In this document: in pieces, positions 25,857 through 61,679 of the stretch
Layout: every line of letters begins with the position of its first letter
Position numbering within the stretch: the stretch's first letter is position 1
Source of the DNA: a virus
IMG/VR virus record: IMGVR_UViG_3300028394_000045
Span: 87,645 to 151,644 of that record
DNA: 64,000 nucleotides
Reading direction: 5' to 3' (one strand)
Notes under the pieces: generated by a model
The model's input: only the letters and a program-made list of their open reading frames with translations
What the model was told of the DNA's origin: nothing
Database searches by the model: none
Program-made: the position numbers and the translations under genes

Positions 25857-26800
25857 GATTTAAAATTATTCCAGCTGATACTTTTATCTGGAATCTGTCA
25901 GAGTTGGTTGATTTTTTAATAGAATATCAAAATCAAGACATTGTTATAATCAATGGCACCGAAGGATGCTGTTCGACCACCATTGGGTTATATAAGTGGT
26001 TGGATAAATTTAAATTTAGTAATGTTACCATAGAAACCGGTAACATATTGGAAAGTCATAATCAATACAAAGTTTCCTATACGGCCCCGTGGAAATTTCT
26101 CGACATAGCAAGACCGATTGATCGGGCTCATCATATATGGAATCGTCAATCGATATTTGGGACGTTATATGGTCGCCCGCTATGGCATAGAATAGGTATT
26201 GCATCCCATCTACTATCGTCGCATAAGTCTATCAGTGAGATTGGTTGTTTGATTAATCCTGCAGATTCAGACCAACGAGAACTATTTGAAATTCTAGAAT
26301 TGTGGAAATATGATCCTAATAGCTTAATTAAATTTTCTAATGTGTTTTCTCAGTTTCCGTGCTACCATCAAGATGTTGATCAATACACACCTGGTGCAAC
26401 ACTAACTGACGGATTTGTTAAACAAACGGAAAGAGTATACAAGAATTTCTTCATTGACATAGTGGCAGAAACTTACACTAGCGGTAATTCTTTTTTCATA
26501 ACTGAAAAAACAGTACGTCCCATGCTGCTGAAAAAACCATTGATTTTAATGGGTGCAAAAGATTGCCTAAATTATCTAAGGCAAATGGGATTCAGAACAT
26601 TCGGCGATTTTTGGGACGAAACATATGATGGGTATGAAGGCCGTGAGAGATATTTGCGTATATTAGATCTAATAGATTGGATCGCAGGGCATAGTCACGA
26701 TCGGTTGGAAACCATGTATTGGGATATGCAATATACATTAGATCACAATTATAATCTACTGATTAATCAGCACTACAACACAGATATAACAAAAATATAA
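25853..26800 (+). CDS. Glycosyltransferase-like protein of the TEKTxKP family (1 of 5), 315 residues
   Basis: An upstream in-frame ATG at 25745 would give a 36-residue extension buried in the preceding gene; the ATG at 25853 overlaps the previous stop as ATGA and is preferred. The C-terminal third holds the shared signature ITEKTVRPMLLKKPLILMG, then NYLRQMGFRTFGDFWDETYD, seen in four other proteins of this window. It resembles the donor-binding end of fucosyltransferase/exostosin-like GT-B enzymes (E-K-...-P...G). The N-terminal half is divergent. Likely sugar transfer with unknown acceptor. The stop shares a base with the start of the first radical SAM gene. Confidence 0.5.
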   Translation: MRFKIIPADTFIWNLSELVDFLIEYQNQDIVIINGTEGCCSTTIGLYKWLDKFKFSNVTIETGNILESHNQYKVSYTAPWKFLDIARPIDRAHHIWNRQSIFGTLYGRPLWHRIGIASHLLSSHKSISEIGCLINPADSDQRELFEILELWKYDPNSLIKFSNVFSQFPCYHQDVDQYTPGATLTDGFVKQTERVYKNFFIDIVAETYTSGNSFFITEKTVRPMLLKKPLILMGAKDCLNYLRQMGFRTFGDFWDETYDGYEGRERYLRILDLIDWIAGHSHDRLETMYWDMQYTLDHNYNLLINQHYNTDITKI

Positions 26801-28167
26801 TGAATAAAAGCAATTTTCTATCATCTGCTGAACAGATGCACCGCGATTTGGGGCCAGCATTGTGCTTGGCCAAATGGAAACAGGTGAGCCTACATTTGCC
26901 CACTGGACTCAATAACAGTTGTTATCATCCACCACTACACACAATTGATCCAGTGGCAATAGCAGTTAATCCTGCGGCTCTGCATAACACTGATCATAAA
27001 AAATCTCAGCGAAAGATAATGTTGCAGCAAGAACGTCCTAAAGAATGTAGTTATTGCTGGAACATGGAAGACCTAGGCCGGCTGAGTGATCGACACTACA
27101 GATCAGGTGAGCCGTGGGCAGCCGTGGATTTTGAACAGATAAAAAATTCGACAGGAGATGAAGATGTTGTTCCCAGTTATGTTGAAGTCAATTTCAATCA
27201 TGCTTGCAATCTGCGGTGCAGTTATTGCAGCCCTCAGTTTAGTAGTTCATGGGCAGATGAAGTGTCTAGACTTGGTGCATATCCTACCCTGGTGCCTCAT
27301 AATGCTCCTGAGCATTTCACTGGGAGCCGTCGCCCTATACCTGCCCGCGAACACAATCCTTATGTAGAAGCATTCTGGTCATGGTGGCCCACTCTGTACC
27401 CTGAACTCAAGCACTTCCGCATGACCGGTGGTGAGCCCTTGATGGATCGCAACACCTATCGAGTGTTTGACTATGTGTTGGATCGCCCCAAGAGTGATTT
27501 ACACCTAGCAGTGACTTCCAACTTTAGTGTAGAGCCGGAACTATCCAGCAAATACTTTGACTACGTTAAAAGATTATGCGACACTGATATTGAACATTTC
27601 ATGCAGTATGTGAGTGTTGATTCGGGCATCGGGCCTCAAGCCGAATACATCCGACATGGATTGGATTTTGAACGCTTACAGAACAATGTGGAAACATATC
27701 TTCGAGATATTCCACATCGCAATAGCCTTACATTTATTGTGACCATGAACAACTTGTCAGTCACAGGATTTCTACCACTGATGAAGTGGATCTTAGAGTT
27801 GAGAAAAACCCATAGCCGAACATATCAGCGTGTGTGGTTTGATACACCTGTGCTGCGACAACCTGCGTGGCAAAGCCTACAGACCCTGCCGGAAAGCTAT
27901 GCTGCAAAGCTAGAACAAGCACGAGACTTCATGTTGGCCAATCTAGAAACAGAATCAGACTCATTCCATGGATTCAAGGACTATGAAGTTCAACGACTGG
28001 AGCGTGACATAGCCTGGATGCGATCAACCGTAAACGCAAGTACCCAAGATCTGGCAGACTTCTATAGATTTTTCACCGAACACGATCGTCGCAGAGGCAC
28101 AGACTTTGAGACCACATTTCCCGAAATGCTCACCTGGTGGCGACAATGCAGCTTACATGCTAGGTAA
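26800..28167 (+). CDS. Radical SAM protein, twitch type (1 of 6), 455 residues
   Basis: C136-NLR-C140-SY-C143 is the CX3CX2C motif that binds the 4Fe-4S cluster cleaving S-adenosylmethionine, followed by FRMTGGEPLMD, the GGEP motif contacting SAM. Upstream, ECSYCWNMED supplies a CxxC pair in the N-terminal region, as in SPASM/twitch proteins that carry an extra cluster. The N-terminal part (CLAKWKQVSLHLPTGLNN, then HNTD.KK) is shared with the gene at 29253, its closest paralogue here. Enzymes of this type oxidise or couple peptides or modify sugars; the substrate cannot be told. It starts on the last base of the previous stop. Length is normal for single-domain plus twitch. Confidence 0.8.
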   Translation: MNKSNFLSSAEQMHRDLGPALCLAKWKQVSLHLPTGLNNSCYHPPLHTIDPVAIAVNPAALHNTDHKKSQRKIMLQQERPKECSYCWNMEDLGRLSDRHYRSGEPWAAVDFEQIKNSTGDEDVVPSYVEVNFNHACNLRCSYCSPQFSSSWADEVSRLGAYPTLVPHNAPEHFTGSRRPIPAREHNPYVEAFWSWWPTLYPELKHFRMTGGEPLMDRNTYRVFDYVLDRPKSDLHLAVTSNFSVEPELSSKYFDYVKRLCDTDIEHFMQYVSVDSGIGPQAEYIRHGLDFERLQNNVETYLRDIPHRNSLTFIVTMNNLSVTGFLPLMKWILELRKTHSRTYQRVWFDTPVLRQPAWQSLQTLPESYAAKLEQARDFMLANLETESDSFHGFKDYEVQRLERDIAWMRSTVNASTQDLADFYRFFTEHDRRRGTDFETTFPEMLTWWRQCSLHAR

Positions 28168-29272
28168 GTACCGAATCATAGTGGATGAATGGGCTGAGGT
28201 TTGGGATCTACTCAAGCCCTATGCCGACGGCAGCTTCTGGCGCTGGAGTGATCTTGATCTTGATCCTGATGCAGTGTATGTTGTTGGTCGTGTGGTGCTC
28301 AAAGAGAACTGGCAATCCATAACTGACTGGGCACGAGCACATCCAGGTCGCATAGTGTTTTCCAATCCCGCCGAAGGATCGCAAACCATATTACTGCAAC
28401 TCAAACGGTTGGTGATTTCTGAACAAATAAAGTCAGGAGAGATATTGCTGCTGACGTCAGGCGATCTTGAACCAGGTTTGAACTACTGCAAGACTGATTG
28501 TTATTTCTCCAACATCGTAGAATACCTTGAAAACATCAGCGCACATGAATCGTGGTCGCAGGTGTATCACAAAACAAACAAGCCATACGACTTTTTGTTC
28601 TTGAATGGGCGACTACGTCCGCATCGTAAGTATCTCATTGATCAACTACGACAACATCAGCTGCTGGATCGTGCGCTATGGACCAACCTTGGCGATCAAG
28701 TGGAGATGAGTTGGACCAGTGCGTTAGAGACCGAACTTGTCGAGCCAGTGAGATTGTTGCCTGAACAATATGAAATACCTCGTGCTTTGCCCAACATGCA
28801 TTCATTGCCCGCAGGATTTGTCAAGCATCATTTGTTTGCCAACACCTGGGGCGATGCCATAGTCAATCCCGCAGCATACGTAGACACATCCTTTTCACTG
28901 GTCACAGAGACCATATTTGATTATCCACACACGTTCCGCACTGAGAAGATCTGGAAACCCATGATCATGTGCCATCCATTTGTGGCAGCTGCCAACCGTG
29001 GGTATTATCGAGATTTGCATGCAGCAGGGTTTGAAACATTTGGCAAATTGATTGACGAGTCATTTGATTACATAGACGATCCTACCGATCGTGCCAACAG
29101 AGTGGTCGCAGTTGTTAAAGATATATGCTATAATGGTGCTGAGGCTTTCTTGGAGGCTGCTAGAGTTACGTGTAAATACAACTATCAGCAGCTTCGTGAG
29201 CATAATAAACAAGAACGAGCCCTGCTACCCGCAAATTTACTCCAACACATTGATGACCGATCTAGAATTTAA
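28157..29272 (+). CDS. Glycosyltransferase-like protein of the TEKTxKP family (2 of 5), 371 residues
   Basis: The ATG at 28157 (MLGKYRIIVDEWAEVWDL) is preferred over 28106 because it overlaps the upstream gene by only 11 bases. FLFLNGRLRPHRKYLIDQL in the middle and TEKIWKPMIMCHPFVAAANR, then FETFGKLIDESFD, near the end are the two signatures of this family, which resembles fucosyltransferase-like GT-B proteins. The family's Arg-His (RPHR) is consistent with nucleotide-sugar phosphate binding. It lies between two closely related radical SAM genes, so it probably acts on the same product. Substrate unknown. Confidence 0.55.
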   Translation: MLGKYRIIVDEWAEVWDLLKPYADGSFWRWSDLDLDPDAVYVVGRVVLKENWQSITDWARAHPGRIVFSNPAEGSQTILLQLKRLVISEQIKSGEILLLTSGDLEPGLNYCKTDCYFSNIVEYLENISAHESWSQVYHKTNKPYDFLFLNGRLRPHRKYLIDQLRQHQLLDRALWTNLGDQVEMSWTSALETELVEPVRLLPEQYEIPRALPNMHSLPAGFVKHHLFANTWGDAIVNPAAYVDTSFSLVTETIFDYPHTFRTEKIWKPMIMCHPFVAAANRGYYRDLHAAGFETFGKLIDESFDYIDDPTDRANRVVAVVKDICYNGAEAFLEAARVTCKYNYQQLREHNKQERALLPANLLQHIDDRSRI

Positions 29273-30584
29273 GCAACAGGTGTTAGACGCCAAGAGTGCA
29301 AGTTTTTGTGCAGCAAAATGGTACAACGCTACCATCTGGTTGGGCAGTGGCATGACTACCAGTTGTCATCACCCGCCGGCCCATTTGGTGGACATTGATA
29401 AAGTCCGGGCCAACCCTAGGCTGCTGCACAATACTGATCAGAAGAAAGAAGATCGTCGCAAGATGATAGCAGGTGAACGACCCAGTGGCTGTGAGTATTG
29501 TTGGAAGATAGAAGACATGGGCAGTGATGCTGTCAGTGACAGAGTATACAAGAGTAAAATTTACCCAATAGAGTTGTTAAATGAAGCACATACCAATCCG
29601 CCTGATCAAGACTTCAACCTCCGTACCTTGGAGATTGCTTTTGACCGTACTTGTCAATTTGCTTGCAGTTATTGTAATCCTGCATTCAGTAGCACTTGGG
29701 TTCGGGACATACGCAAAAATGGACCCTATCGAGATCTTGTGTCTGATGGTCGTAATCACTTCACTCACGATCATGGCAGTAGTCAGCTTTATAGCTTCGG
29801 TGAAACCAATCCTTATGTGGAGGCGTTCTTTGCGTGGTGGGAGTCAGACCTACATCGAACCCTCCAAGAACTGAGAATAACCGGTGGCGAACCCTTGATG
29901 TCGGGCGAGACTTGGAAACTGATTGATTGGTTCCGAAACAATCCAGGGCGCAGCCAAACACGCCTGGCCATCAATTCAAACCTGGGCACAGCAGTGGATC
30001 TAGATCGATTGCTGAACAGCATCGATGGGTTAGAAGTAGATTTGTATACATCTAACGAAAGTGTAGGCCTGCAAGCAGAATACATCAGAGATGGATTAGT
30101 GTGGGATGATTGGGCCAACAATGTAGAACGCTTGCTGGATAGCAGAAAGTTCCGTGGCATACACATCATGAACACCATCAATGCATTGTGTTTGTATTCG
30201 CTGGATCAGTTCTTGGAATGCATCATGAACTGGAAAATAGAATACGGACGTGATGCTGTGAGTTTCACTCTAAACATCTTGAGATTCCCCAGCTTTCAGT
30301 CGCCCTTGGTGCTGCCCGACGAACTACGCACAATATTTCGCAAGCGGTTGGAAGTATGGCTGGACGCTTGGTGGGACAGTGAATTCTTGCATGAGCACGA
30401 AGTCAATCATGTGCAACGCTTGATTGATTATCTCGACATTGTGAAGACCCCACATTCAGAAGCATTTGACCGGCCTCAACTGCTAAATGACTTCAAGCAG
30501 TTCTACACACAATACGATCAACGTCGAGGCAAAGTCTTTAGCCTGGCATTTCCTGCACTAACCCCCTGGTATGACGCACTATGA
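29253..30584 (+). CDS. Radical SAM protein, twitch type (2 of 6), 443 residues
   Basis: The ATG at 29253 gives MTDLEFKQQVLDAKSASFCA and matches the start of the paralogue at 26800; a longer start at 29091 would run through the preceding gene. C134-QFA-C138-SY-C141 is the cluster motif and ELRITGGEPLMS the SAM-binding GGEP. GCEYCWKIEDMG gives the extra CxxC. With the gene at 26800 it shares HHPPAH/YHPPLH and LLHNTDQKK/ALHNTDHKK, so these two form a subfamily. The C-terminal part YDQRRGKVFSLAFPALTPWY is also shared (HDRRRGTDF). Duplication suggests two sequential or alternative substrates. It overlaps both neighbours. Confidence 0.8.
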   Translation: MTDLEFKQQVLDAKSASFCAAKWYNATIWLGSGMTTSCHHPPAHLVDIDKVRANPRLLHNTDQKKEDRRKMIAGERPSGCEYCWKIEDMGSDAVSDRVYKSKIYPIELLNEAHTNPPDQDFNLRTLEIAFDRTCQFACSYCNPAFSSTWVRDIRKNGPYRDLVSDGRNHFTHDHGSSQLYSFGETNPYVEAFFAWWESDLHRTLQELRITGGEPLMSGETWKLIDWFRNNPGRSQTRLAINSNLGTAVDLDRLLNSIDGLEVDLYTSNESVGLQAEYIRDGLVWDDWANNVERLLDSRKFRGIHIMNTINALCLYSLDQFLECIMNWKIEYGRDAVSFTLNILRFPSFQSPLVLPDELRTIFRKRLEVWLDAWWDSEFLHEHEVNHVQRLIDYLDIVKTPHSEAFDRPQLLNDFKQFYTQYDQRRGKVFSLAFPALTPWYDAL

Positions 30585-32299
30585 CACTAGAAGAAAAAAT
30601 AACAGAACTCAAATCTCAATTTGATATAGTTGCGATAGTTAATCTTGATCCATGGCACGATCTGCACGAACATGATAAAAAGTCTTGGATGAGAGAAACG
30701 CTTGGGCCTATATACCGAGACTCTTATCTCGACAAACAGCGTATTTTGTTTACAGTCTCGCGAGGAGGTGTATACGCAGATCAACAAAGTCTGGCAGGGC
30801 AGTTGATCACACAACTACAGCGCAGACTCAACGAAGTAGACATATCTAATTTTTTTGTTATAGTACTGACCAACGATGTAACAATACAAGAATCTTATAT
30901 TGCTCATTATCAAGAATTTTCAACCGATATGGTTCCAATGACGATTGACGTTTATTCTGTTGAAATCACGCAGCGTCGTAGACAAGATAAGATGTCTAAG
31001 AAAACAAAACTCGGTAGCTATCAATATACGCATCTAGATCCAATGAAGATTGACATTGAAGATCTTACTGAACAAGAACAATTTTTACTCACCAAAAGTT
31101 CTACATTTTGCATGTACCCTTGGATACATTTTCATGCTTATCCCACCGGGTCGGCGCACCCATGTTGCATGGCAGATATGCAATTTCCAATTGGGGATAT
31201 GAGAAAAAATACCATTAGAGAAATATGGAATCAGGAACCTCTTAAAGAAATACGCAAGCAGATGCTGAATGAACAAGCAGTAACAGCTTGTAACAGATGC
31301 TACGAACAAGAATCCACAGGATTTGTCAGTGGAAGGATGAGTGCTAATAAACATCACGGCCATCTAATCAACCGTATACATGAAACCAAACCAGATGGAA
31401 CATTAGACAGATTTGAACTGACCTACTGGGATATAAGATTCTCAAATCTTTGCAATCTCAGCTGCCGCAGTTGCGGTCACATCTTTTCAAGTTCATGGTA
31501 TAAAGACCAGGCCAAACTAGCAGGGCCTGAATGGAAAAAAACTCACAAGGTATTGAACTATGCAGGTAGATTTGAAACTGATGCATGGGATCAACTGGTA
31601 GAACATATCGAGCATGTGGAGCAAATCTACTTTGCAGGGGGCGAACCCTTGCTAATGGAAGAACATTACAAGATTCTTGATGAACTGGTTCGGCAAAAAA
31701 AGTTCAATGTTCGATTGATTTATAATACTAATTTTACACATACCAATCTCAAAGATCGGAGCGTGTTCGAATATTGGAAACTATTTGATTCTGTCAGTGT
31801 AGGCGCCAGTCTCGACGGTTCAGGGCGTTATGGAGAATACATACGTAAAGGTACCGAGTGGAACAAGATAGAACAAAATAGAATTGACATGTTAAAGATC
31901 TGCCCGGATGTAGATTTTTACATCAGCCCTACTCTTAGTATAATGAATGCGTGGCACTTGCCCGATTTTCACCGAGACTGGGTCGAGCGAGGCTTTATTA
32001 AACCTCAGGATCTCAATGTAAATATCTTACAAGACCCACCGCACTATCGAATTGATATCGCTACTGTAAAGTACAAACAACGACTACGGTTAAAATATCA
32101 AGAACATCTGGAATGGTTAGAAAAAAATCAAGATCCTCTAGAACGTGCCACTGAAGGATTTAAATCGGCTATTAATTTTATGATGGCAACAGATAACACA
32201 CATCTCATCGACACCTTTTGGCGTAAGACTCATGAACTGGATATCATACGGTCAGAAAATATTAGCGATATTATACCCGAACTTGAAGCATTAAAATGA
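30581..32299 (+). CDS. Radical SAM protein with extra N-terminal domain (3 of 6), 572 residues
   Basis: Residues 1-150 form an additional alpha/beta domain without known motifs (FDIVAIVNLDPWHDLHEHDK, then RILFTVSRGGVYADQQS). From about 170 a SPASM/twitch-like part begins with FCMYPWIHFHAYPTG, CCMAD and ACNRCYEQE, supplying cysteines for an auxiliary Fe-S cluster. The catalytic core follows with C291-NLS-C295-RS-C298 and YFAGGEPLLMEE. The opening domain makes it the longest of the six. The start overlaps the previous stop by 4 bases, as does the end with the next gene. The first domain may recruit a substrate or partner (inference). Confidence 0.8.
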   Translation: MTLEEKITELKSQFDIVAIVNLDPWHDLHEHDKKSWMRETLGPIYRDSYLDKQRILFTVSRGGVYADQQSLAGQLITQLQRRLNEVDISNFFVIVLTNDVTIQESYIAHYQEFSTDMVPMTIDVYSVEITQRRRQDKMSKKTKLGSYQYTHLDPMKIDIEDLTEQEQFLLTKSSTFCMYPWIHFHAYPTGSAHPCCMADMQFPIGDMRKNTIREIWNQEPLKEIRKQMLNEQAVTACNRCYEQESTGFVSGRMSANKHHGHLINRIHETKPDGTLDRFELTYWDIRFSNLCNLSCRSCGHIFSSSWYKDQAKLAGPEWKKTHKVLNYAGRFETDAWDQLVEHIEHVEQIYFAGGEPLLMEEHYKILDELVRQKKFNVRLIYNTNFTHTNLKDRSVFEYWKLFDSVSVGASLDGSGRYGEYIRKGTEWNKIEQNRIDMLKICPDVDFYISPTLSIMNAWHLPDFHRDWVERGFIKPQDLNVNILQDPPHYRIDIATVKYKQRLRLKYQEHLEWLEKNQDPLERATEGFKSAINFMMATDNTHLIDTFWRKTHELDIIRSENISDIIPELEALK

Positions 32300-36828: not shown

Positions 36829-36926
36829 ATTGGATTAAAAACATATGGAGCAGGATCATGCTAGAGATCCGCTATCGCAAAAAACTGCGAGAACTGCGCA
36901 AGCGAGACCCGTTTATCTACAAATGA
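36825..36926 (+). CDS. 33-residue highly basic mini-protein, ATGA-coupled on both sides
   Basis: An AAGGAG ribosome site at 36813-36818 lies 6 bases before the ATG at 36825, the best ribosome site in this part of the operon. The ATG overlaps the previous stop, and its own TGA (36924-36926) overlaps the ATG of the carbamoyltransferase. The protein begins MNWIKNIWSRIMLE and continues with an amphipathic Arg/Lys-rich helix (YRKKLRELRKRDPFIYK). Similar basic peptides ending in RDPFIY occur, in my recollection, in marine T4-like phages. It may act as a small RNA-, membrane- or protein-binding helix, or simply couple translation. Function unknown. Confidence 0.65.
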   Translation: MNWIKNIWSRIMLEIRYRKKLRELRKRDPFIYK

Positions 36927-38404
36927 ACTATGTGGGTATATCAGCCGGATTCCATGACGCTGCGGTCAGTGTGATCAATCAGGCTGGCGATATACTATTT
37001 GCTGCTCACAGCGAACGCTACAGCAAGAAAAAACACGATCAAAATCTCTGCGCAGATGTGTTGATAGATGCATTGTCTCACGTAAAATTTCCTGAGATTG
37101 AATATCACTATTATGAACGTCCGTGGCTCAAGGCCATGCGTCAATTCTACAGCGGAGAAGGATTTCGCTGGCCCACATGGAATCGACTGCTGGGACCTAC
37201 ATATGATTTCTTAGGACGTCCTCGAATCAACACACATGATCATCATCTGTGCCATGCAGCAGCAGGATTCCAGACCAGCGGATTTGACGAAGCAACTGTG
37301 ATCATAATAGATGCCATTGGTGAGTTCGATACCATAACCATATGGGATGCAGCATATGATAACGACACCGGTCGTGCTGAGTATAAAAAATTATGGAGTC
37401 AGCGTTACCCACATTCAATTGGGTTGATGTATTCGGCTATTACTGCTCGGGTGGGACTGCGACCATTGGATGAAGAGTACATACTCATGGGCATGGCAGC
37501 CTACGGCGAACCCAAGTATCTAAGAGAAATGCAGCAGGCATTTTTGAACCCTAGAGAAAAATTACAATTTACTCAGAATCTTCATGTGGGAGTAGGTGAT
37601 GATTTCTTGCCCCATGCTGATCCAATGGACATTGCCTGTAGCGCACAGCTGGTGGCAGAGCAGTTGATCCGCAATGTACTGGGTCGTGCCAGAGGTGTGG
37701 GTCGCAGTAGGAATCTAGTGTATGGTGGTGGTGTGGCCTTGAACTGTGTGGCCAATCGAATGCTAGGAGATTACTATGAACGCATATGGATCATGCCGAA
37801 TCCTGGTGATGCTGGCAACAGTCTTGGGTCTGCTTGCCTAGGATACGGAAAAAAAGTCACCTGGAATAATAGTTTCCTGGGCCATGATATTCCCGGCAGT
37901 TATCCTGTCAATGCCGTATTGGATCATCTCCTCACAGACAAGATAGTAGGTGTGGCATCAGGCCGAGCAGAGTTTGGACCACGAGCACTGGGCAATCGCA
38001 GTCTTCTTGCAGATCCCAGGGGATATTCGATCAAGAACCGTGTGAATGAAATCAAACGCAGACAAAAGTTTCGACCATTTGCACCTGTGATCTTAGAAGA
38101 GTTTGCGAATGATTACTTTGAAATGCCTTATGGATTTAAGACCAGTCGTTACATGCAAACCATAGCTGCATGCAAGAACCCAGATCGGTTTCCAGCCATA
38201 GTGCATGTGGATGGCACCAGCAGAGTGCAAACTGTTCCCAAGGACGGATCGGGCATACGTGAGCTGCTGGAAAAATGGTATTTCATGACCAAGTGCCCTA
38301 TGCTGCTTAACACCAGTTTGAACATACGTGGTGAGCCCATGGTGAACGATCGCGCAGATGCCGATAGATTTCAACGCCTGTACGGCGTCAAGGTGTGCAG
38401 TTAG
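36923..38404 (+). CDS. O-carbamoyltransferase, NodU/CmcH family, 493 residues
   Basis: The ATG at 36923 (MNYVGISAGFHDAAVSVIN) is chosen over 36845 because the conserved domain starts there. Family hallmarks in order are SERYSKKKHD, HDHHLCHAAAGF (metal-binding His), GGGVALN, EFGPRALGNRSLLADPR, RFRPFAPVI-like FRPFAPVILEEF, and LLNTSLNIRGEPMV. These enzymes use carbamoyl phosphate and ATP to make a carbamoyl-adenylate and transfer the carbamoyl group to a hydroxyl of a sugar or antibiotic. Length is slightly under the usual 530-600. Translation is coupled to the mini-gene (ATGA). It ends tail-to-tail, overlapping the amidinotransferase by 4 bases. An enzyme decorating a glycan is the simplest reading. 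Confidence 0.85.
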   Translation: MNYVGISAGFHDAAVSVINQAGDILFAAHSERYSKKKHDQNLCADVLIDALSHVKFPEIEYHYYERPWLKAMRQFYSGEGFRWPTWNRLLGPTYDFLGRPRINTHDHHLCHAAAGFQTSGFDEATVIIIDAIGEFDTITIWDAAYDNDTGRAEYKKLWSQRYPHSIGLMYSAITARVGLRPLDEEYILMGMAAYGEPKYLREMQQAFLNPREKLQFTQNLHVGVGDDFLPHADPMDIACSAQLVAEQLIRNVLGRARGVGRSRNLVYGGGVALNCVANRMLGDYYERIWIMPNPGDAGNSLGSACLGYGKKVTWNNSFLGHDIPGSYPVNAVLDHLLTDKIVGVASGRAEFGPRALGNRSLLADPRGYSIKNRVNEIKRRQKFRPFAPVILEEFANDYFEMPYGFKTSRYMQTIAACKNPDRFPAIVHVDGTSRVQTVPKDGSGIRELLEKWYFMTKCPMLLNTSLNIRGEPMVNDRADADRFQRLYGVKVCS

Positions 38405-52155: not shown

Positions 52156-53247
52156 TTAGTTCTGACCTTGCAAGATATACTTGCCAAATCGCTTGTGGAA
52201 CTCGTCAAAATGCTTCATCTTGGTAGGCAAGAATGGCAAGTCGTATGTGGTAAGTGCGATACGAGCACCCATCACAGTCAGCTCAGTTTCAAAGTTAGCC
52301 ATCATGTAGCTGAGGAAGTTGTCTGCCATTTCATGGAACTTTTTCTGATCCACAATATCCTTGGCATCCTTGAGCTCGTAGCACATGGAGATGACCAAGC
52401 TGTACATGGCACTGACTTCTTTCACATTCAACTCCTTGACCTTGCCGCTCAAGATGTCTTCGGGCCGAGGCATGCGTCCAGCAACCTTGCGATGTGCCAT
52501 GAACTTCACTGCAAGACCTTCACCAACTGTGCCTGCGATCAAGTTGGTCAATGTATCGTCGTCGCTGTCTTCGTCGTCCAACAGCTGGCTCACAAAGGTC
52601 CATGAGCGCGGAGTAGCGAATGCACGGCTGGCGCTTTTGGCGTCAAAGTCATAGAGGTCTTGCTTGGCAAAGCTCAAGTAGCCCACCACGTCTTTGTGGA
52701 TGCCGTTCATCACTGCCCAATTTTGGTAGCTGGCAAAGTCCACCTTCATCTCTTGGTGGATGAAACGATTTGCCAACGGAGTGGGCATGCGATATGTCAC
52801 ACCCTTGTCGCTTTCACGATTGCCTGCGGCAACCATCACCACGTTCTTAGGCAGCGCATACTTACCAATGCGACGGTTCAAAATCAACTGATATGCTGCT
52901 GACTGCACACTGGGAGCCGCACTGTTCAGTTCGTCCAGGAACAGCACCACGATCGGGTACTGACTGGCAGTTTCTTCGTCGGGCAGTTCCACAGGAGGTG
53001 CCCAATCCATCTTACCGATGTCTTTGTTGTAGAACGGGATACCACGGATGTCAGTGGGTTCCATCTGCCCCAGTCGCAAGTCGATCATGAGACCGCCCAG
53101 TTCGTTGGTGATACCTTCTACCAACTCGCTCTTGCCAATACCGGGAGGCCCCCACAAGAACAACGGACGCTGAACTTTGAACGCCTTGAGCACACTCTTG
53201 CGAGCTTGGGTGGAAGTCACTGTACGTGCGTCTGAAACTGCTGCCAT
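52156..53247 (-). CDS. MoxR-type AAA+ ATPase, 363 residues
   Basis: GPPGIGKS at residues 33-40 is Walker A, VVLFLDE at 100-106 Walker B, and AAGNRESDKGVTYRMPTPLANR supplies sensor 1 and the arginine-finger region typical of the MoxR branch. These hexameric ATPases act as chaperones that load cofactors or remodel a VWA-domain partner; here that partner is the gene at 50088, two genes downstream. Length 363 is normal. It has its own promoter (53278-53306), an AAAGG ribosome site and a terminator, so it is a single-gene unit. Confidence 0.85.
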   Translation of the reverse strand: MAAVSDARTVTSTQARKSVLKAFKVQRPLFLWGPPGIGKSELVEGITNELGGLMIDLRLGQMEPTDIRGIPFYNKDIGKMDWAPPVELPDEETASQYPIVVLFLDELNSAAPSVQSAAYQLILNRRIGKYALPKNVVMVAAGNRESDKGVTYRMPTPLANRFIHQEMKVDFASYQNWAVMNGIHKDVVGYLSFAKQDLYDFDAKSASRAFATPRSWTFVSQLLDDEDSDDDTLTNLIAGTVGEGLAVKFMAHRKVAGRMPRPEDILSGKVKELNVKEVSAMYSLVISMCYELKDAKDIVDQKKFHEMADNFLSYMMANFETELTVMGARIALTTYDLPFLPTKMKHFDEFHKRFGKYILQGQN

Positions 53248-54686: not shown

Positions 54687-55113
54687 ACGGGTGTAACAAC
54701 CAACCTTGCCCGGTGACTCGATGACGCCATTGATAAAATGGGTTTTCTATTTCAATCTTCCATTCACCGTTGAACCCAAGATACGAAGTGGGATCCGTTA
54801 GGCCATGATCATTGGTATAATGAGCCAAATGCGTCCATGCAGGGATGATATCAAATCCATCAATTGATATGTTGTTCAACACGATAGCAGTTTCTGAATC
54901 GGACCTGTAGATTTTATTTTTTAATGTTACTGCTATTGAAAGTACAGACAGCAATGGCAGTTTGGTTGATATGTCTAGAGTGCCGGAAAGTGGTCCTTGA
55001 TACATCAAATTTTGATTTACCCAGATTTCCGTATCAGGGCACCCGACTGGGGTTATGCCTATTGTGAGATCCAACTGCGGATCAGTAGCCAGCAGAGCTA
55101 AAAAGTTCTTCAT
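54673..55113 (-). CDS. Conserved hypothetical protein, 146 residues
   Basis: The ATG at 55113 (MKNFLALLATDPQLDLTIGI) is preferred to a GTG at 55137, which lies deeper in the radical SAM gene. The protein is a beta-rich single domain with PDTEIWVNQNLMYQGPLSGT and an ending DIIPAWTHLAHYTNDHGLTD, PTSYLGFNGEWKIEIENPF that I have seen as a conserved phage segment without function. It is immediately downstream of a radical SAM gene and overlaps it by 32 bases, so it may be that enzyme's partner or substrate carrier (inference). Confidence 0.5.
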   Translation of the reverse strand: MKNFLALLATDPQLDLTIGITPVGCPDTEIWVNQNLMYQGPLSGTLDISTKLPLLSVLSIAVTLKNKIYRSDSETAIVLNNISIDGFDIIPAWTHLAHYTNDHGLTDPTSYLGFNGEWKIEIENPFYQWRHRVTGQGWLLHPFTDL

Positions 55114-56359
55114 ATTCAGGAAGATAGTCCAACACACAATTGCCGCGAGACTGATCTAGTTTTTTTAGATATCTCATCATGTTGGGTAGAAGGTGTGTCT
55201 CGTCAGGCGAGTTGTTGAGATAGTTTACATAACTGGTTAGATCTTGTAATACACTTTGTTGTGTTTGATTAGGATCTCGATGATTGATAACCTGCGTTGG
55301 ATTGATGTCTTGTTGTTGTATCCATTGCGTCAGCTGATCACTGATTGTCTGGCGCACTTGGGTGGGCAATACAGACATGCGCAGCATGTGGGGTTCTTCT
55401 AAAAAATTACAACTTTCTACGCCTATCTGATTGATCAATGCAAACTTGTAGATGCTCAACAGTTCGCCAGCAGTCAATGCGGTGGGAGTGGTGCGAAGTG
55501 TAGATACCCATCCTTGTGTGCGACCTAGTTCAATCCAACGGTGCATGGTCTCCGTCACAGATTGTATATTGCTAGGATATCTCACATAGTCATTGACTCG
55601 AGTCATTGATTCTATACTCATGCCTAGATGTACTTGTTTGAACTCGCACAGCAGTTGATTTATTTCTGAATCCCACACCGTAAGATTGGTAGTGAGTCCT
55701 AATGTAATTTTATCTCGGAAATCTTGTTTGACAAGAGCTTGTAGTATTCGTTTAAATCCCGGAGTGATCAGGGTCTCGCCGCCAATAAAATGCAAGTATG
55801 CCAGTCCTGTGGTTCTCTTCAGCAGATCAATGAATACATCAACCTTGCTTGGATCCTCTACCCAGTTAGCAGGCGGTAGTCGTTCAATGAATCCTATGCG
55901 ATGAAACTCAGCTGCCAGCCTAGAACTGGATTCAGGCACACACATCACACACGCACTATTGCAATGATTACCTAGATCGATTTGCCAATCCAATGGACGA
56001 AGATCTGTGTGGCCATGCGGTAATGATTTTTCAAACTCAGATGCAAATGTACTGCTCAAACAGCTCTTGTCAAAATTTGTTAGGGTAATTCCAGTTTTTA
56101 ACAACTGCTTCTGCCGCCCACTTACCTTGCTATACTTTTCCATCTCATGACATTCATTGCACTCTGCTAGTGATTCTCCGGACAACATAGCAGCTCTAAC
56201 AGGAGCCATATGTTGTTGGAAAAAAGTCAATGGATGGACGTCACCGATCGTCGGAGTGAGCTGACCTGTATTGCTCCACCGGCAGAACTTCATCTGTCCG
56301 GTGGAGGCTATTTTCATGTGTATCCATGGACTGGAACAAAATGTTTGTTCTAGAGACAT
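55082..56359 (-). CDS. Radical SAM protein, twitch type (6 of 6), 425 residues
   Basis: C133-NSA-C137-VM-C140 is the cluster motif and HFIGGETLIT the GGE motif (GGET instead of GGEP). The N-terminus FCSSPWIHMKIASTGQMKFC with ECNECHEME provides auxiliary-cluster cysteines as in the plus-strand copies. It is the only radical SAM gene outside the 26-36 kb cluster and is divergent from the others. It stands between a small protein gene and a metallophosphatase on the 57-54 kb transcript. Substrate unknown. Confidence 0.8.
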   Translation of the reverse strand: MSLEQTFCSSPWIHMKIASTGQMKFCRWSNTGQLTPTIGDVHPLTFFQQHMAPVRAAMLSGESLAECNECHEMEKYSKVSGRQKQLLKTGITLTNFDKSCLSSTFASEFEKSLPHGHTDLRPLDWQIDLGNHCNSACVMCVPESSSRLAAEFHRIGFIERLPPANWVEDPSKVDVFIDLLKRTTGLAYLHFIGGETLITPGFKRILQALVKQDFRDKITLGLTTNLTVWDSEINQLLCEFKQVHLGMSIESMTRVNDYVRYPSNIQSVTETMHRWIELGRTQGWVSTLRTTPTALTAGELLSIYKFALINQIGVESCNFLEEPHMLRMSVLPTQVRQTISDQLTQWIQQQDINPTQVINHRDPNQTQQSVLQDLTSYVNYLNNSPDETHLLPNMMRYLKKLDQSRGNCVLDYLPEYEELFSSAGY

Positions 56360-56361
56360 GT

Positions 56362-56952
56362 TTACATTGTGGGACCATTGCCGTTGCGGAATCCAATGGT
56401 CCCACCTTCGGATGTGATCCTCTTGATCACATCCTCAAACAAGATGGGAGCAAAGTCTGTGTGCTCCACGCATACACAATGATACCGCGGATCAACAACC
56501 TTGTTCACAAACTCGCCAGCAGCTGGTCCTGCTTTCATCACTCTGTTGTCATGCAAGTGACCGTGGATGTTCACTCCAAAACGTCCCAATGATTCTTCAT
56601 GGATAGGGATGTGGCTCAAGATCATTCCGTTCATCACATGGTATGCCCTCAACTCGCGGAAATACTTGCGATATTCGTCATCAGGGAAGATGTCGTGGTT
56701 GCCGCGGATCAACACCTTGTCGCCGTTCAAACGAGCCATGATGGCCAAACTCTTGCGGTTGATCACCACATCACCCAAGTGATATACCTTGTCCGTGGGC
56801 TTGACTCTTTCGTTCCAGGCCTTGACCATGGCTTCGTCCATTTCCTCAGGTGTGTCGTAGGGACGCAACTTGGTCACACCATCTGACCGCGTGAAGTGAC
56901 ACATGCCTTTGTGGCCAAAATGTGTGTCTGATACTAAAAATACTGCTGGCAT
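56362..56952 (-). CDS. Calcineurin-like metallophosphoesterase, 196 residues
   Basis: The start at 56952 (MPAVFLVSDTHFGHKGMCHF) overlaps the stop of the kinase gene as TAATG. The metal-binding motifs DTH, GDVV, GNHD and GHLH appear in the correct order. The enzymes hydrolyse phosphomono- or diesters, such as cyclic nucleotides or RNA ends. Two bases separate the stop from the radical SAM start. Close linkage to a P-loop kinase could mean an RNA-end repair or nucleotide-processing function, like the T4 PseT pair (inference). Confidence 0.8.
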   Translation of the reverse strand: MPAVFLVSDTHFGHKGMCHFTRSDGVTKLRPYDTPEEMDEAMVKAWNERVKPTDKVYHLGDVVINRKSLAIMARLNGDKVLIRGNHDIFPDDEYRKYFRELRAYHVMNGMILSHIPIHEESLGRFGVNIHGHLHDNRVMKAGPAAGEFVNKVVDPRYHCVCVEHTDFAPILFEDVIKRITSEGGTIGFRNGNGPTM

Positions 56953-57419
56953 TATACTCTCCAAATTTCTTCAAAACCTTCTTCCAAGGTGGGTTCTTCC
57001 CAGTTATCAATCATACTCCGCATCACATGCTCAGGAATTATTTTTCCAGAATCGTATCGGTTGGCCAATCTACGAGCCAGTTCGTCTAGCGCAGGTGTGG
57101 CAAACACCACAGCGATATGTTCATAGTCAGGCAGCATGCGGAACTTACGACTACGACTCGCCGCAGTGGTGCTGGTCTGGTCCCAGATGATATCTTTGCC
57201 TGCGGACTTTGCTATTTCAACTTCTGCTATCATTATTCGAATAGCCGATGGCATAAAATCTACAAACACTTCGCTATAGGTCTTGCCCACCAGCTTGGCA
57301 TGCGTATTCACATGTTTATCTGTGCCAATGTATGCACAGTCCTTGACCCACTCTTGTTTGGATATCCAGGTACTTTTACCCGCACCTGGCACTCCAACCA
57401 ATTGATAACACTTTGGCAT
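56952..57419 (-). CDS. P-loop kinase (polynucleotide-kinase/zeta-toxin-like), 155 residues
   Basis: GVPGAGKST at residues 9-17 is Walker A; DIIWDQTSTTAASRSRKFRM and ELARRLANRYDSGK give the Walker-B-like Asp and the lid arginines of small PNK/AAA_33-type kinases. Such proteins phosphorylate 5'-OH nucleic acids, nucleosides or small metabolites. It precedes a metallophosphatase with overlapping start/stop (TAATG), recalling the kinase-phosphatase pair of T4 polynucleotide kinase split into two proteins. That analogy is inference. Confidence 0.75.
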   Translation of the reverse strand: MPKCYQLVGVPGAGKSTWISKQEWVKDCAYIGTDKHVNTHAKLVGKTYSEVFVDFMPSAIRIMIAEVEIAKSAGKDIIWDQTSTTAASRSRKFRMLPDYEHIAVVFATPALDELARRLANRYDSGKIIPEHVMRSMIDNWEEPTLEEGFEEIWRV

Positions 57420-58282: not shown

Positions 58283-58357
58283 TGGTCTCGCTGCCCGGGA
58301 TTGAACCAGGATTTGAGTCTTAGGAGGACCCCGTTCTATCCATTGAACTACAGCGAG
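58283..58357 (-). tRNA. tRNA-Arg (CCT)
   Basis: The cloverleaf is complete: acceptor CTCGCTG/CAGCGAG, D arm GTTC/GAAC, anticodon stem GGGTC/GACTC around loop CTCCTAA (anticodon CCT, reading AGG), T arm CCTGG/CCGGG with TTCAATC, discriminator A and encoded CCA. Confidence 0.93.
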
Positions 58358-58359
58358 AT

Positions 58360-58434
58360 TGGCCGGCCCTGAGAGGATCGAACTCCCACCTCCGGGTTCG
58401 AAGCCCGGAATGATATCCATTTCACCAAAGGCCG
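58360..58434 (-). tRNA. tRNA-Arg (TCG)
   Basis: Acceptor CGGCCTT/AGGGCCG, anticodon stem CCGGG/CCCGG with loop CTTCGAA (anticodon TCG, reading CGA and probably other CGN), T arm GGGAG/CTCTC with TTCGATC, discriminator G and encoded CCA. Two bases separate it from the other tRNA-Arg. Confidence 0.93.
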
Positions 58435-58435
58435 C

Positions 58436-59524
58436 TTAAAATTTCATCTTGTGCCTGGATTTGAATTGTCGCAATGCATAAAAGTTACTAGGATTCCACA
58501 ACAGGAATCTACCTGGGTCTGACCGAGCCACTAACATGAGACCTTCAATATAGTTTTTGTGAGCGGTGCTACCATTTAAAGTTTCCCACCAGTCGTTGTT
58601 TCTACCAAAATATAATAAATTCTCTCCTTCAGAGGGTATTGTAATTCTACTACCAAAATTGCCCCGATGCTGTAACGTGCTTTGGTTTATGTCACCAAAT
58701 CTTCCGCATCCTTTGATGCTGTAATCCAGCCAATCGAAATCCCAGGGGTTATGCATGTCGTTGAATTCTGTGAGATCATTGGGACAAGTGGCGTGTGGCT
58801 TGAGTGATTTGATATAGTTCAGCAGCATGTAGCTTTGTTTTACATGCAATTCGGGAAGATCGGGACTGATGTAAAAACAGTCTAGGGTGGGATTTGCCAT
58901 CACTCTGGGATAATTTTCATCATCCTGTGTGCTATAAACCTGATTGTCCTGGAACAAGATCCTGGGCTTTTCCAACCCAATGATAGAGATATAATCGTCG
59001 GTGCCAAGAATCTCACGGAGATATTTTTCCGAGATATAATCGCCACTGCCAATCGCACCCCAATGGTATCTTGAGCCTTTTTCAAAAATCCAGTAAGGAC
59101 TGGAATACATGTCTCTGTACATATCAGCAGAGTCAGTTCGTGTGACAATCCTGGTAAGTGGATCATAGATACCGCGATTCAAGAATTCATACACCTCTTG
59201 AAATCTTTCGTTTTCTCGTTTTCCAGGATGCAGCCTAATGTTCAGGATGTCTAAGTGTATTTTGTTGCGTTCAAATACCTTATACACGGTATAGCTGTCT
59301 GTGCCGCCGGAGAAGTTCAACACTATGGGTTTGTTTTTTGCCGCGATCTGATGTGCTCGCATGTCTAGCAGTTGATCCCACGAAGCCTCCGGTTCCTGGC
59401 TCCAATTACATTGATCAAATGCCGAATCGTATAGGTTGAAATGAAGTTCTAGTCCTTGCTCAACTGCATGCTGAGTCGCCAAAAACTTGTTGGTAAATGT
59501 CTGATTGCCTACCTGGTAAAACAT
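58436..59524 (-). CDS. PP-loop ATP-pyrophosphatase-like protein, 362 residues
   Basis: The start at 59524 (MFYQVGNQTFTNKFLATQHA) is preferred to 59632, which lies well inside the neighbour. FSGGTDSYTV (SGGTDS at 72-77) is the PP-loop that adenylates a substrate with release of pyrophosphate, as in PAPS reductase, asparagine synthase and tRNA thiolation enzymes. Downstream are GLEKPRILFQDN and WDFDWLDYSIKGCGRFGDIN, which I do not recognise. The reaction is probably amide or thiol-type transfer to an activated carbonyl. It ends directly before the tRNA-Arg genes, so a tRNA or nucleotide target is possible but not shown. Confidence 0.65.
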   Translation of the reverse strand: MFYQVGNQTFTNKFLATQHAVEQGLELHFNLYDSAFDQCNWSQEPEASWDQLLDMRAHQIAAKNKPIVLNFSGGTDSYTVYKVFERNKIHLDILNIRLHPGKRENERFQEVYEFLNRGIYDPLTRIVTRTDSADMYRDMYSSPYWIFEKGSRYHWGAIGSGDYISEKYLREILGTDDYISIIGLEKPRILFQDNQVYSTQDDENYPRVMANPTLDCFYISPDLPELHVKQSYMLLNYIKSLKPHATCPNDLTEFNDMHNPWDFDWLDYSIKGCGRFGDINQSTLQHRGNFGSRITIPSEGENLLYFGRNNDWWETLNGSTAHKNYIEGLMLVARSDPGRFLLWNPSNFYALRQFKSRHKMKF

Positions 59525-60087
59525 GTCATGAATCGATCTTTGTGAACTTGGTCCAGACCTATCTGTATAGTTATGCGACCTTGTTTTATATTCTCCACGC
59601 TGTGGGTGGTCTTGGCGTCGATGAGATACCAAGTCTCTAATGGTATCACCACTTGATCCAACAAATCTAAATCATCGTAGTCGCTGTGATTTTTAACAGA
59701 CACACCGGGCTTTTCTTTCCAGTAACTTGTGGTAGCATTGTCACTGCCTGCTTGCAGTAGATACAGCAATGCGTAGTCTCTGCTTTGGTCTCGATGCGGT
59801 CCGGAATGATCCATTCCGGCTTCACTCACGCACAACCCCACACGGATAAATTCAGAGATGATGTTTGATCTGACCCATTGATCAAATTCGTCACTTATTT
59901 CTCTAAGCCCAAGCCCGGTACTGGTGCCAACAAACTCGCCATCCTTGAAAAGACTGCGTCCATGACTATTGCCTAACACATGCCGATTAAAAATAACACT
60001 TTCCTGATTGACTCTTGCCCAGGCCTGTGCTTTGAGATCGTCTGGGATCGATGGTAAATCTAATTTCTGATACAGCATCAGATCCAT
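59509..60087 (-). CDS. HxD...H oxygenase-like protein A, 192 residues
   Basis: SGPHRDQSRDYALLYLL has H98 and D100, and WYLIDAKTTHSVENI has H162, with R171 in GRITIQIGL. This is the HxD...H...R pattern of cupin-like Fe(II)/2-oxoglutarate enzymes. It is paralogous to the next gene upstream (identical spacing from H/D to H and R). Substrate unknown. It overlaps that paralogue by 10 bases and the PP-loop gene by 16. Confidence 0.6.
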   Translation of the reverse strand: MDLMLYQKLDLPSIPDDLKAQAWARVNQESVIFNRHVLGNSHGRSLFKDGEFVGTSTGLGLREISDEFDQWVRSNIISEFIRVGLCVSEAGMDHSGPHRDQSRDYALLYLLQAGSDNATTSYWKEKPGVSVKNHSDYDDLDLLDQVVIPLETWYLIDAKTTHSVENIKQGRITIQIGLDQVHKDRFMTCFTR

Positions 60088-60644
60088 CCAGCAGGTAACA
60101 AATCTTTGTTAAATCCAATTGTAAACTGCACTCGCGGAGTCTCAATGCCTTCTACGCTGTGCAGTATGGTGGCATCATGCAAGTACCAAACATCTGTGGG
60201 ACCTGGTGGTAGATCAAACACAGGATCACAATCATCATAATTCAAGTGCTGTATCCCAAGGTCTCTTACTTCGGGTTGTCCTTGCTCTTGCCAATATACC
60301 ACGCGGCAGTTTGGTCCCCCGGTGGTGATGTTATATGTTAGCGCATACTCTCTGGTGGTGTCTGTGTGGATGCCACTGGTATCGCTGTTGCAATATCTAT
60401 AGTTAACTCCGCAGTCTGTGAATCGTTCAGAGATATTGTCTCGAACCCATTGATTGAATTCTTCGCTCATGGGCACACGTACACCTTTGCTGGCCAGGAA
60501 AGGTTGGCCATCTCTCACACTATGTCTGATACGTACTTCATGCAACGGAGTCTCTGTGGGAAAATCTGCGTAGTCCCTGTGTGCCTCGTCAAAGAACTTT
60601 TGCGGAGGGCGAGGTAGGTCAGGGAATAGCTTGTAATATTTCAT
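60078..60644 (-). CDS. HxD...H oxygenase-like protein B, 188 residues
   Basis: The start at 60644 (MKYYKLFPDLPRPPQKFFDE) is preferred to 60767, which extends through the neighbour. GIHTDTTREYALTYNI gives H93 and D95, and ILHSVEGI gives H162, with R171 later, at the same spacing as protein A. VWYLHDATILHS parallels TWYLIDAKTTHS. The duplication suggests two related hydroxylations or a heteromer. It overlaps the Bug-like gene by 4 bases. Confidence 0.6.
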   Translation of the reverse strand: MKYYKLFPDLPRPPQKFFDEAHRDYADFPTETPLHEVRIRHSVRDGQPFLASKGVRVPMSEEFNQWVRDNISERFTDCGVNYRYCNSDTSGIHTDTTREYALTYNITTGGPNCRVVYWQEQGQPEVRDLGIQHLNYDDCDPVFDLPPGPTDVWYLHDATILHSVEGIETPRVQFTIGFNKDLLPAGWI

Positions 60645-61585
60645 GGTGATTTCTTTATTTGTGATGCAATCGGCATGAAAGTCTTGCGTAAAAATTCTGC
60701 ATATTTTTTCACTCCTGCTGGATCTAGTTTGTTGTTGTCCACTGTGATAAATTGACTTTCTGCCCATTGACGATATTCGTCGCTGCGTATGGCACGATTG
60801 AATTCACGTTGATACCAATCTACTATGTCTGGAGCAGTGTTTGGAGGCAATGTGAAATACCATCCTGACTGTATCTTGATAATATTTATCACAGGCACTG
60901 CGGGCATAGAGGGCAGAGATCGATCACCAGTGATGGCTATGATTTTTACCTTGCCGGCTTCGGCTAATTTTGCTGAACCGGCTATGGGCAGTAGCCCAAA
61001 TTCTGTTTGGCCACTGGCCACTGCTAGCGCAATCTCGGGGGTGTTTTTGTACGGTATGTTTTCGATCATGTTCCGCCCGCCGTTTAGATACATGAAATAT
61101 TCAAAGATAAAACTAGTTGCACCACTACCTGTAGCTATGTTTACAAATCTCGTGGGCTTTTTTAATAGTTGTAGAAACTCTGCTGGGGTATTCACAGGGC
61201 TATTGGGGGTGGCTATCAGGGCCATTGGGCTTTCACCCAACACAGCTACTGGAGTAAACGTGTCCCAGTTATATCGTTTTATGTCGTCTTGGAATACATC
61301 GTTGCCTACAAACACACTGAATATGCTGGGTACTGCTACACTGTGACCATCAGGATCAGCAGACACAAATGAATTCATTGCGATAACACCGTCCTGCCCT
61401 GGCTGCCCGCGTATCACAAACACGGTGCCCGGATTGTTTCGACTCACTATGTCTGATGCTTTTCTAAAGGTCAGTTCATTGTTGGAACCAGCAGCATAGC
61501 CGGTGATCACGTTTATTGTTTTGGTTGGTTGCCAAGCCCATGCGGAGGTGCAAAGCAAAAGGAGTAGGGTAAAGAGTTTTTTCAT
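60641..61585 (-). CDS. Periplasmic solute-binding protein, Bug/TctC family, 314 residues
   Basis: A signal peptide (residues 1-17, MKKLFTLLLLLCTSAWA) precedes WQPTKTINVITGYAAGSNNE, the start typical of TctC/Bug proteins, which bind carboxylates (citrate, glutamate, terephthalate and others) for tripartite tricarboxylate transporters. IATGSGATSFIFEYFMYLNG and IENIPYKNTPEIALAVASGQ match the ligand-binding part. Length is right for the family. The permease genes are not in the window. Such a protein in a phage is unusual and could support host uptake. No ribosome site precedes the ATG; CATAAATA lies 5 bases upstream, similar to a late octamer. Confidence 0.85.
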   Translation of the reverse strand: MKKLFTLLLLLCTSAWAWQPTKTINVITGYAAGSNNELTFRKASDIVSRNNPGTVFVIRGQPGQDGVIAMNSFVSADPDGHSVAVPSIFSVFVGNDVFQDDIKRYNWDTFTPVAVLGESPMALIATPNSPVNTPAEFLQLLKKPTRFVNIATGSGATSFIFEYFMYLNGGRNMIENIPYKNTPEIALAVASGQTEFGLLPIAGSAKLAEAGKVKIIAITGDRSLPSMPAVPVINIIKIQSGWYFTLPPNTAPDIVDWYQREFNRAIRSDEYRQWAESQFITVDNNKLDPAGVKKYAEFLRKTFMPIASQIKKSP

Positions 61586-61605: not shown

Positions 61606-61679
61606 TGGTGCTCCTAACAAGAATCGAACTTGTATCTCATCCTTACCAAGGATGTGTTCTGCCATTTAACTATAGGAGC
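61606..61679 (-). tRNA. tRNA-Thr (GGT)
   Basis: Acceptor GCTCCTA/TAGGAGC, anticodon stem CATCC/GGATG with loop TTGGTAA (anticodon GGT, reading ACC/ACU), T arm ACAAG/CTTGT with TTCGATT, A73 and encoded CCA. Confidence 0.93.

Follow-up and report, generated by a model that had tools for sequence, protein, structure and literature searches.

To our knowledge, phage-encoded binding proteins are known mainly as cyanophage PstS. This periplasmic phosphate-binding protein is expected to use the transporter of the host, and it is upregulated in P-limited infection (PMC6359870). For the TTT systems, the sole component reported on a viral contig in the open-licence literature that was searched is a tctA domain match, located on a SUP05 viral contig that had been recognised with non-reference methods (PMC4164917); a phage TctC was not found in that literature. 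In Bordetella, orphan Bug proteins, which are solute-binding proteins (SBPs) of the TctC type, far outnumber the permeases, with 76 Bug homologues versus two tctAB sets in B. pertussis (PMC5812351), and in a Limnohabitans genome we counted ~60 TctC versus 3 TctA. A phage that carries only an SBP could therefore plug into a permease of its host. Here we describe a phage gene for such a protein. It is located in what we call the window, the whole 64,000-nucleotide stretch of DNA that was analysed, which makes up the final 64 kb of an IMG/VR virus record that is 151,644 bases long.

Results

On the minus strand, 60641-61585 is an intact ORF that encodes, from an ATG start, a TctC/Bug-type periplasmic SBP of 314 aa. 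The protein matches the Pfam family PF03401 (TctC) with 69.8 bits (E = 3.7e-19) over positions 3-238 of the 274 in the profile, where the curated cut-off is 27 bits. By inspection only, residues 1-17 (61535..61585, minus strand) are a signal peptide of the SPase I type; in the N-terminus, MKKLFTLLLLLCTSAWA/WQP, a charged n-region and a hydrophobic core are followed by the cleavage site A-W-A. The AW(Q/E)P junction after the export signal is also conserved among the phage relatives of this Bug. An AlphaFold model based on 20 sequences was obtained with a pLDDT of 91.2 and a pTM of 0.85. When the model was compared to the PDB with Foldseek, the best 17 matches were all TTT-SBPs, including TphC, Ideonella TBP, BugD, MatC, AdpC, Bug27, and 4X9T, which indicates the two-domain TTT-SBP fold. 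The TM-score to AdpC is 0.84 by query and 0.88 by target, and the sequence is ~16-22% identical to the solved TTT-SBPs. Taken together, the Pfam match, the signal as read by inspection, and the fold confirm a TctC/Bug match far beyond chance, and they bear out the sequence-only reading, which had proposed a phage gene for an exported Bug/TctC SBP. Since Pfam does not require the ligand-loop motif of these proteins, the window protein is classed in PF03401 despite an altered motif; we file it only as a divergent clade of that family, not as a canonical Bug.

The surrounding record carries the genes of a phage. A T4-type gp23 major capsid gene is present in the same record (324 bits), and its product is 65% identical, over its length, to the capsids of PA5oct, MIJ3, and Vibrio phage 2.275.O, jumbo phages with genomes that all exceed 280 kb. 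Backbone genes in the window encode a MoxR-like AAA ATPase (52156..53247, minus strand), which is 48.5% identical to those of PA5oct-group phages, and a protein that is phosphoesterase-like by sequence (56362..56964, minus strand), which is common to relatives with a different SBP lineage nearby. The Bug operon itself sits between a tRNA-Thr(ggt) gene directly upstream (61606..61679, minus strand) and two tRNA-Arg genes directly downstream (58283..58434, minus strand). On these sequence comparisons, the record is confirmed as a true phage, a large T4-type relative of the giant phages.

Other genes of the window deserve mention. PHROG radical-SAM matches occur at 26800-32299 (ORFs 26800-28167, 29091-30584, and 30581-32299) and a further radical-SAM gene is found at 55082-56359, a concentration that is unusual in one phage. 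The region 36845-38404 strongly matches a phage Nol-like carbamoyltransferase PHROG (297 bits), and 3252-18392 is one 5,046-codon open frame, which is very large for a phage protein.

Presence in other phages, a point raised by the sequence-only reading, was established with two scans that found relatives of the window Bug, 31-45% identical, on 30 further IMG/VR contigs of up to 320 kb. A tblastn search of the window protein against 50,697 annotated phage records returned no match and no PHROG was found for it, so that current annotation would miss the family. INPHARED matches to other TctC queries (MT836965, MT835824, OR851081, and AGRM01000002) were only 23-30% identical; the records were unannotated, very short, or bacterial-looking, and were not counted. 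A profile of the phage family gave 314-536 bits for phage members versus ~170 for the best match in 81 Comamonadaceae genomes, a gap that is partly due to construction of the profile from phage rows and for which a tree is the fairer test. In the tree, the 22 phage rows make up one side of a branch with an SH-aLRT of 90 (96 without L031) and no cellular row lies inside. When TctC proteins adjoining PP-loop genes were added in a second tree, most of these were placed in additional groups composed of phage proteins alone, and a single phage protein, L038, adjoined cellular rows. It should be noted that the cellular rows in these trees come from Comamonadaceae and a few others and that many branches are long, such that a cellular sister elsewhere is possible. 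The phylogeny places the window protein in a phage clade, far from the Comamonadaceae Bugs sampled, and the gene is, judging from the trees, a long resident of phages and not a recent host capture.

Burkholderiales are rich in Bug genes and a related contig, L131, has ABC-permease-like genes at its end that may be host flank, observations that would suit host DNA misplaced in a viral contig, or recently captured from a host, as the source of the Bug gene. This source is barely credible when set against the T4-type capsid in the same record, the phage backbone neighbours, the tRNAs, and a clade that comprises phage proteins from 30 further contigs and no sampled cellular member. On the capsid, the synteny, and the tree, we reject host capture and contamination, and the bacterial origin of the contig piece, named by the sequence-only reading as what would refute it, is rejected on the capsid, the flanking backbone genes, the tRNAs, and the phage clade.

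The abundance of the family in Betaproteobacteria had also been offered as a host clue, which we find to be circumstantial only. The window protein is not nested in betaproteobacterial Bugs; in favour of the clue is a Porin_4 outer-membrane porin, above the cut-off in 5 of 36 contigs, including that of L144, the nearest relative of the window Bug, and not including the window's. Porins of this type are common in Betaproteobacteria and are a circumstantial host clue for the related phages. It is possible that the porin provides, in some related phages, an outer-membrane entry step and is a partner in uptake. Near SBP and PP-loop genes, Porin_4 porins are located at L144 2779-3945, L130 11440-12606, and L133 9281-10456. 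The genes at the end of L131 (1-2453), a contig classed as viral, encode an ABC-transporter permease and an ATPase, and may derive from flanking host DNA or form a further uptake system of the phage.

The PFxAGGxxD ligand-loop motif is highly conserved in TctC/Bug SBPs, and mutation of T155, the key carboxylate contact in TphC, abolished ligand stabilisation (PMC8556258). With the contacts taken from TphC, 21 phage rows were compared with 40 Comamonadaceae Bugs. In the window Bug, the counterpart of the motif is the beta1-alpha1 ligand loop GYAAGSNNE (residues 29-37; 61475..61501, minus strand), which departs from it: the aromatic residue and the first Gly are kept, the second Gly is replaced with Ser, and the Asp is replaced with Glu. 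In the alignment, the motif Asp (Asp37) is Glu in 20 of 21 phage rows and is retained by all 40 cellular rows, and the first loop glycine, as aligned to TphC, is kept in phage rows. The domain-2 ligand loop ATGSGATS (residues 151-158; 61112..61135, minus strand) was located by alignment with TphC S154-T155, where it is two residues shorter than TphC in all 21 phage rows; by this alignment, the T155-type side-chain contact of carboxylate-specific Bugs is absent from the phage clade. The deletion is followed by His-Lys/Arg in most phage rows and by Thr-Ser in the window Bug. Loss of pocket residues, foreseen as a refutation, is therefore seen in part, in the Asp to Glu change and the two-residue deletion, but the phage clade shows a conserved pocket pattern of its own. 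Because this pocket is unlike those of all solved relatives, the ligand is not readable from sequence, and a carboxylate would be a guess from family membership.

Bug is the first gene of a four-gene overlapping operon, in which it is followed by two 2OG-Fe(II)-oxygenase-like genes and a PP-loop ATP-pyrophosphatase gene. The first oxygenase-like gene (60078..60644, minus strand; 188 aa, HxD...H...R) shares an ATGA overlap with the Bug stop codon, the second (59509..60087, minus strand; 192 aa) encodes a paralogue of the first and overlaps its gene, and the start of the gene for the PP-loop (SGGxDS) ATP-pyrophosphatase-like protein (58436..59524, minus strand; 362 aa) overlaps the second oxygenase-like gene. 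The HxD...H...R pattern is invariant in three sequences, the two window proteins and one relative. For both oxygenase-like proteins, Pfam gave nothing above the cut-off (protein 1 was run on slightly longer ORF versions), and a PDB search with their alignment gave only weak, unrelated, and spurious matches. In the PP-loop protein, S72, G74, D76, and S77 are invariant in 20 rows and G73 is present in at least 90%. Its model resembles TilS, AsnB, LarE, and NAD synthetase (E about 3e-3 to 8e-3), and no Pfam family matches it convincingly. An assignment as PAPS reductase was rejected, there being only one weak PHROG match (E = 3.6e-4).

Gene order was also read in the relatives. In most of the 26 phage junctions that were read, the Bug gene runs into the next gene through an ATGA overlap. 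L144 has the same set of genes as the window operon in close order, with Bug placed between the two oxygenase-like genes and the PP-loop gene last. Most Bugs of the window's lineage, lineage A, adjoin enzymes other than the PP-loop gene: in other lineage-A phages, a glutamine-amidotransferase-like or sulfotransferase-like gene follows Bug, usually via an ATGA overlap, and a divergent methyltransferase adjoins the Bug gene. An APS-kinase-like domain fused to a C-terminal, weakly nucleotidyltransferase-like stretch (NMNAT, CTP_transf_like) is encoded at L003 14186-14977 and in relatives, and such fusions are frequent near lineage-A Bug genes. Bug27 and Bug69 bind quinolinate (PMC11452294), which together with the fusion neighbour hints at NAD precursors as ligands of lineage-A Bugs; this is a lead only, since the window operon lacks the fusion.

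A scan with the PP-loop family identified 424 relatives, of which the best 80 were taken, resulting in 54 loci after 90% dereplication. Within these 54 loci from the best 80 of 424, an SBP gene is found within 3 kb in 38 and at 50 bp or less from the PP-loop gene in 22, and ~30% are without a recognised SBP nearby. The kinds within 3 kb at the 38 loci are TctC (30), DctP (10), and NMT1-like (4; Pfam matches near the cut-offs), with two kinds at some loci, and the TctC genes adjoined by the PP-loop gene belong to several lineages. In large whole contigs selected for PP-loop, 16 of 24 TctC genes are 3 kb or less from a PP-loop gene versus 2.1 expected, and none of 20,000 random placements gave so high a count (maximum 10). 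The corresponding count in contigs selected for SBP is 8 of 13 versus 1.8 expected; the contigs in both tests are partly related phages, which renders the tests optimistic and overstates independence. The operon and the recurrent linkage suggest that these viruses may redirect host nutrient uptake.

Further gene sets accompany the PP-loop family. A cassette at L101 5001-10929 (G003, G004, G101) consists of TctC, PP-loop, tryptophan-halogenase-like, second PP-loop, and TRAP DctP genes; in the L101-type cassette, Pfam scores are 178.6 bits for the tryptophan-halogenase-like protein and 158.8 bits for DctP. Nitronate-monooxygenase-like (FMN) proteins are encoded near the PP-loop gene at L164 4220-5128, L173 3535-4428, L188 3309-4199, and L204 7121-8020, and no recognised SBP was seen at the L164 and L173 loci.

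The related phages share a common backbone of the phosphoesterase-like gene, MoxR, VWA genes, and others. At or near this backbone, lineage A is found in the window and in L019/L020 and the L041 type in G002, L097, and G100; a more canonical TctC (L038) is found at the comparable region in G004. The presence of different SBPs at comparable backbone sites suggests, from the few maps drawn, that SBPs are exchanged. The same backbone region carries different accessory sets in relatives, and accessory hot spots in phages like these could explain clustering, in which case the SBP, PP-loop, and oxygenase genes would be unrelated accessory genes in one variable island and their linkage would be functionally meaningless. 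We consider this unlikely, because the SBP and PP-loop genes are no more than 50 bp apart at 22 of the 54 loci (best 80 of 424), because start and stop codons overlap, and because the pairing recurs with SBPs of several lineages and of three superfamilies.

Short secreted accessory proteins of phages often act as periplasmic blockers. The window SBP could likewise protect against superinfection, or sequester a toxic or signal compound, and the occurrence of several unrelated SBP types at comparable sites in related phages would fit such a function. However, the two-domain ligand-binding fold and the clade-specific conserved pocket positions favour retained small-molecule binding, and we regard a blocker as distinctly improbable.

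Discussion

The reading that we favour is uptake: the phage SBP, added to a promiscuous host permease, imports an organic acid and perhaps feeds the linked enzymes, a proposal for which we see about as much chance of being right as wrong. The window SBP would be exported to the host periplasm, where it would capture a small, probably acidic metabolite and pass it to the host TctAB or to another membrane permease. A host permease is invoked because the phage record has no TctA or TctB and thus no complete TTT transporter; TctA was found in none of 17 virus records and TctB in none of 21, both sets including the 151,644-base record, and these records may be fragments. The imported compound may support infection by supplying carbon or precursors, or by serving as substrate of the operon enzymes, of which the PP-loop enzyme would adenylate its substrate for amidation or thiolation. 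We infer the delivery to a host permease, the ligand class, the benefit, and the link between import and enzymes. Of the sequence-only proposal that the protein may raise carboxylate uptake, uptake stands as the most economical reading; the carboxylate ligand is conjectural, the canonical contacts being altered. The operon, the phage-specific clade, and the association with PP-loop enzymes had escaped that proposal.

TctC proteins can also signal: Bordetella requires BctC for citrate transport and likewise for two-component signalling (PMC5812351). With this precedent, a phage pocket unlike that of transport Bugs, and phage records without a permease, the window SBP could be used for sensing, whereby the ligand-bound form contacts a sensor kinase or chemoreceptor of the host and, during infection, changes the gene expression or behaviour of the host. 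No sensor partner was seen beside any phage copy, however, and the recurring neighbours are metabolic-type enzymes, so that we hold sensing to be quite unlikely and uptake through a host permease to be the better account.

Extending the uptake reading, environmental phages may carry an "import and modify" cassette, in which an exchangeable orphan SBP is combined with a co-translated PP-loop protein and tailoring enzymes; this proposal is tentative, with the chances somewhat against it. The orphan SBP (TctC, TRAP DctP, or NMT1-like) would borrow host permeases, and the PP-loop and tailoring enzymes would act on the imported compound. If true, a phage could switch nutrient specificity by swapping one gene. 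The PP-loop family that pairs with several SBP types is undescribed, and the TctC/PP-loop cassettes are a concrete gene set for asking which compounds phages import. If confirmed, the phage TctC family and its PP-loop pairing would mean that phages widely redirect periplasmic organic-solute uptake.

The locus can be compared with known systems at several levels. The window PP-loop protein shares SGGxDS and a Rossmann-like ATP domain with the ATP pyrophosphatases TilS, AsnB, LarE, and the NAD and GMP synthetases, to which the alignment is weak and spans ~150 residues (E about 3e-3). The window Bug resembles the TTT/Bug SBPs TphC, AdpC, MatC, BugD, and Bug27 in fold, length, export signal, the glycine in the first loop, and its orphan state without adjacent TctAB. 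It differs from those solved in the loop-1 Asp to Glu change and the two-residue deletion at the T155 loop, and from those known in being phage-encoded beside oxygenase-like and PP-loop genes. Whereas the SUP05 case is a permease domain, the window holds a binding protein on a capsid-bearing contig, with a family on 30 more contigs. Cyanophage PstS belongs to another superfamily, has another ligand class, and is without a PP-loop operon. Phage SBPs are already known as a kind through PstS; relative to the open-licence literature that was searched, the divergent phage TctC family is new.
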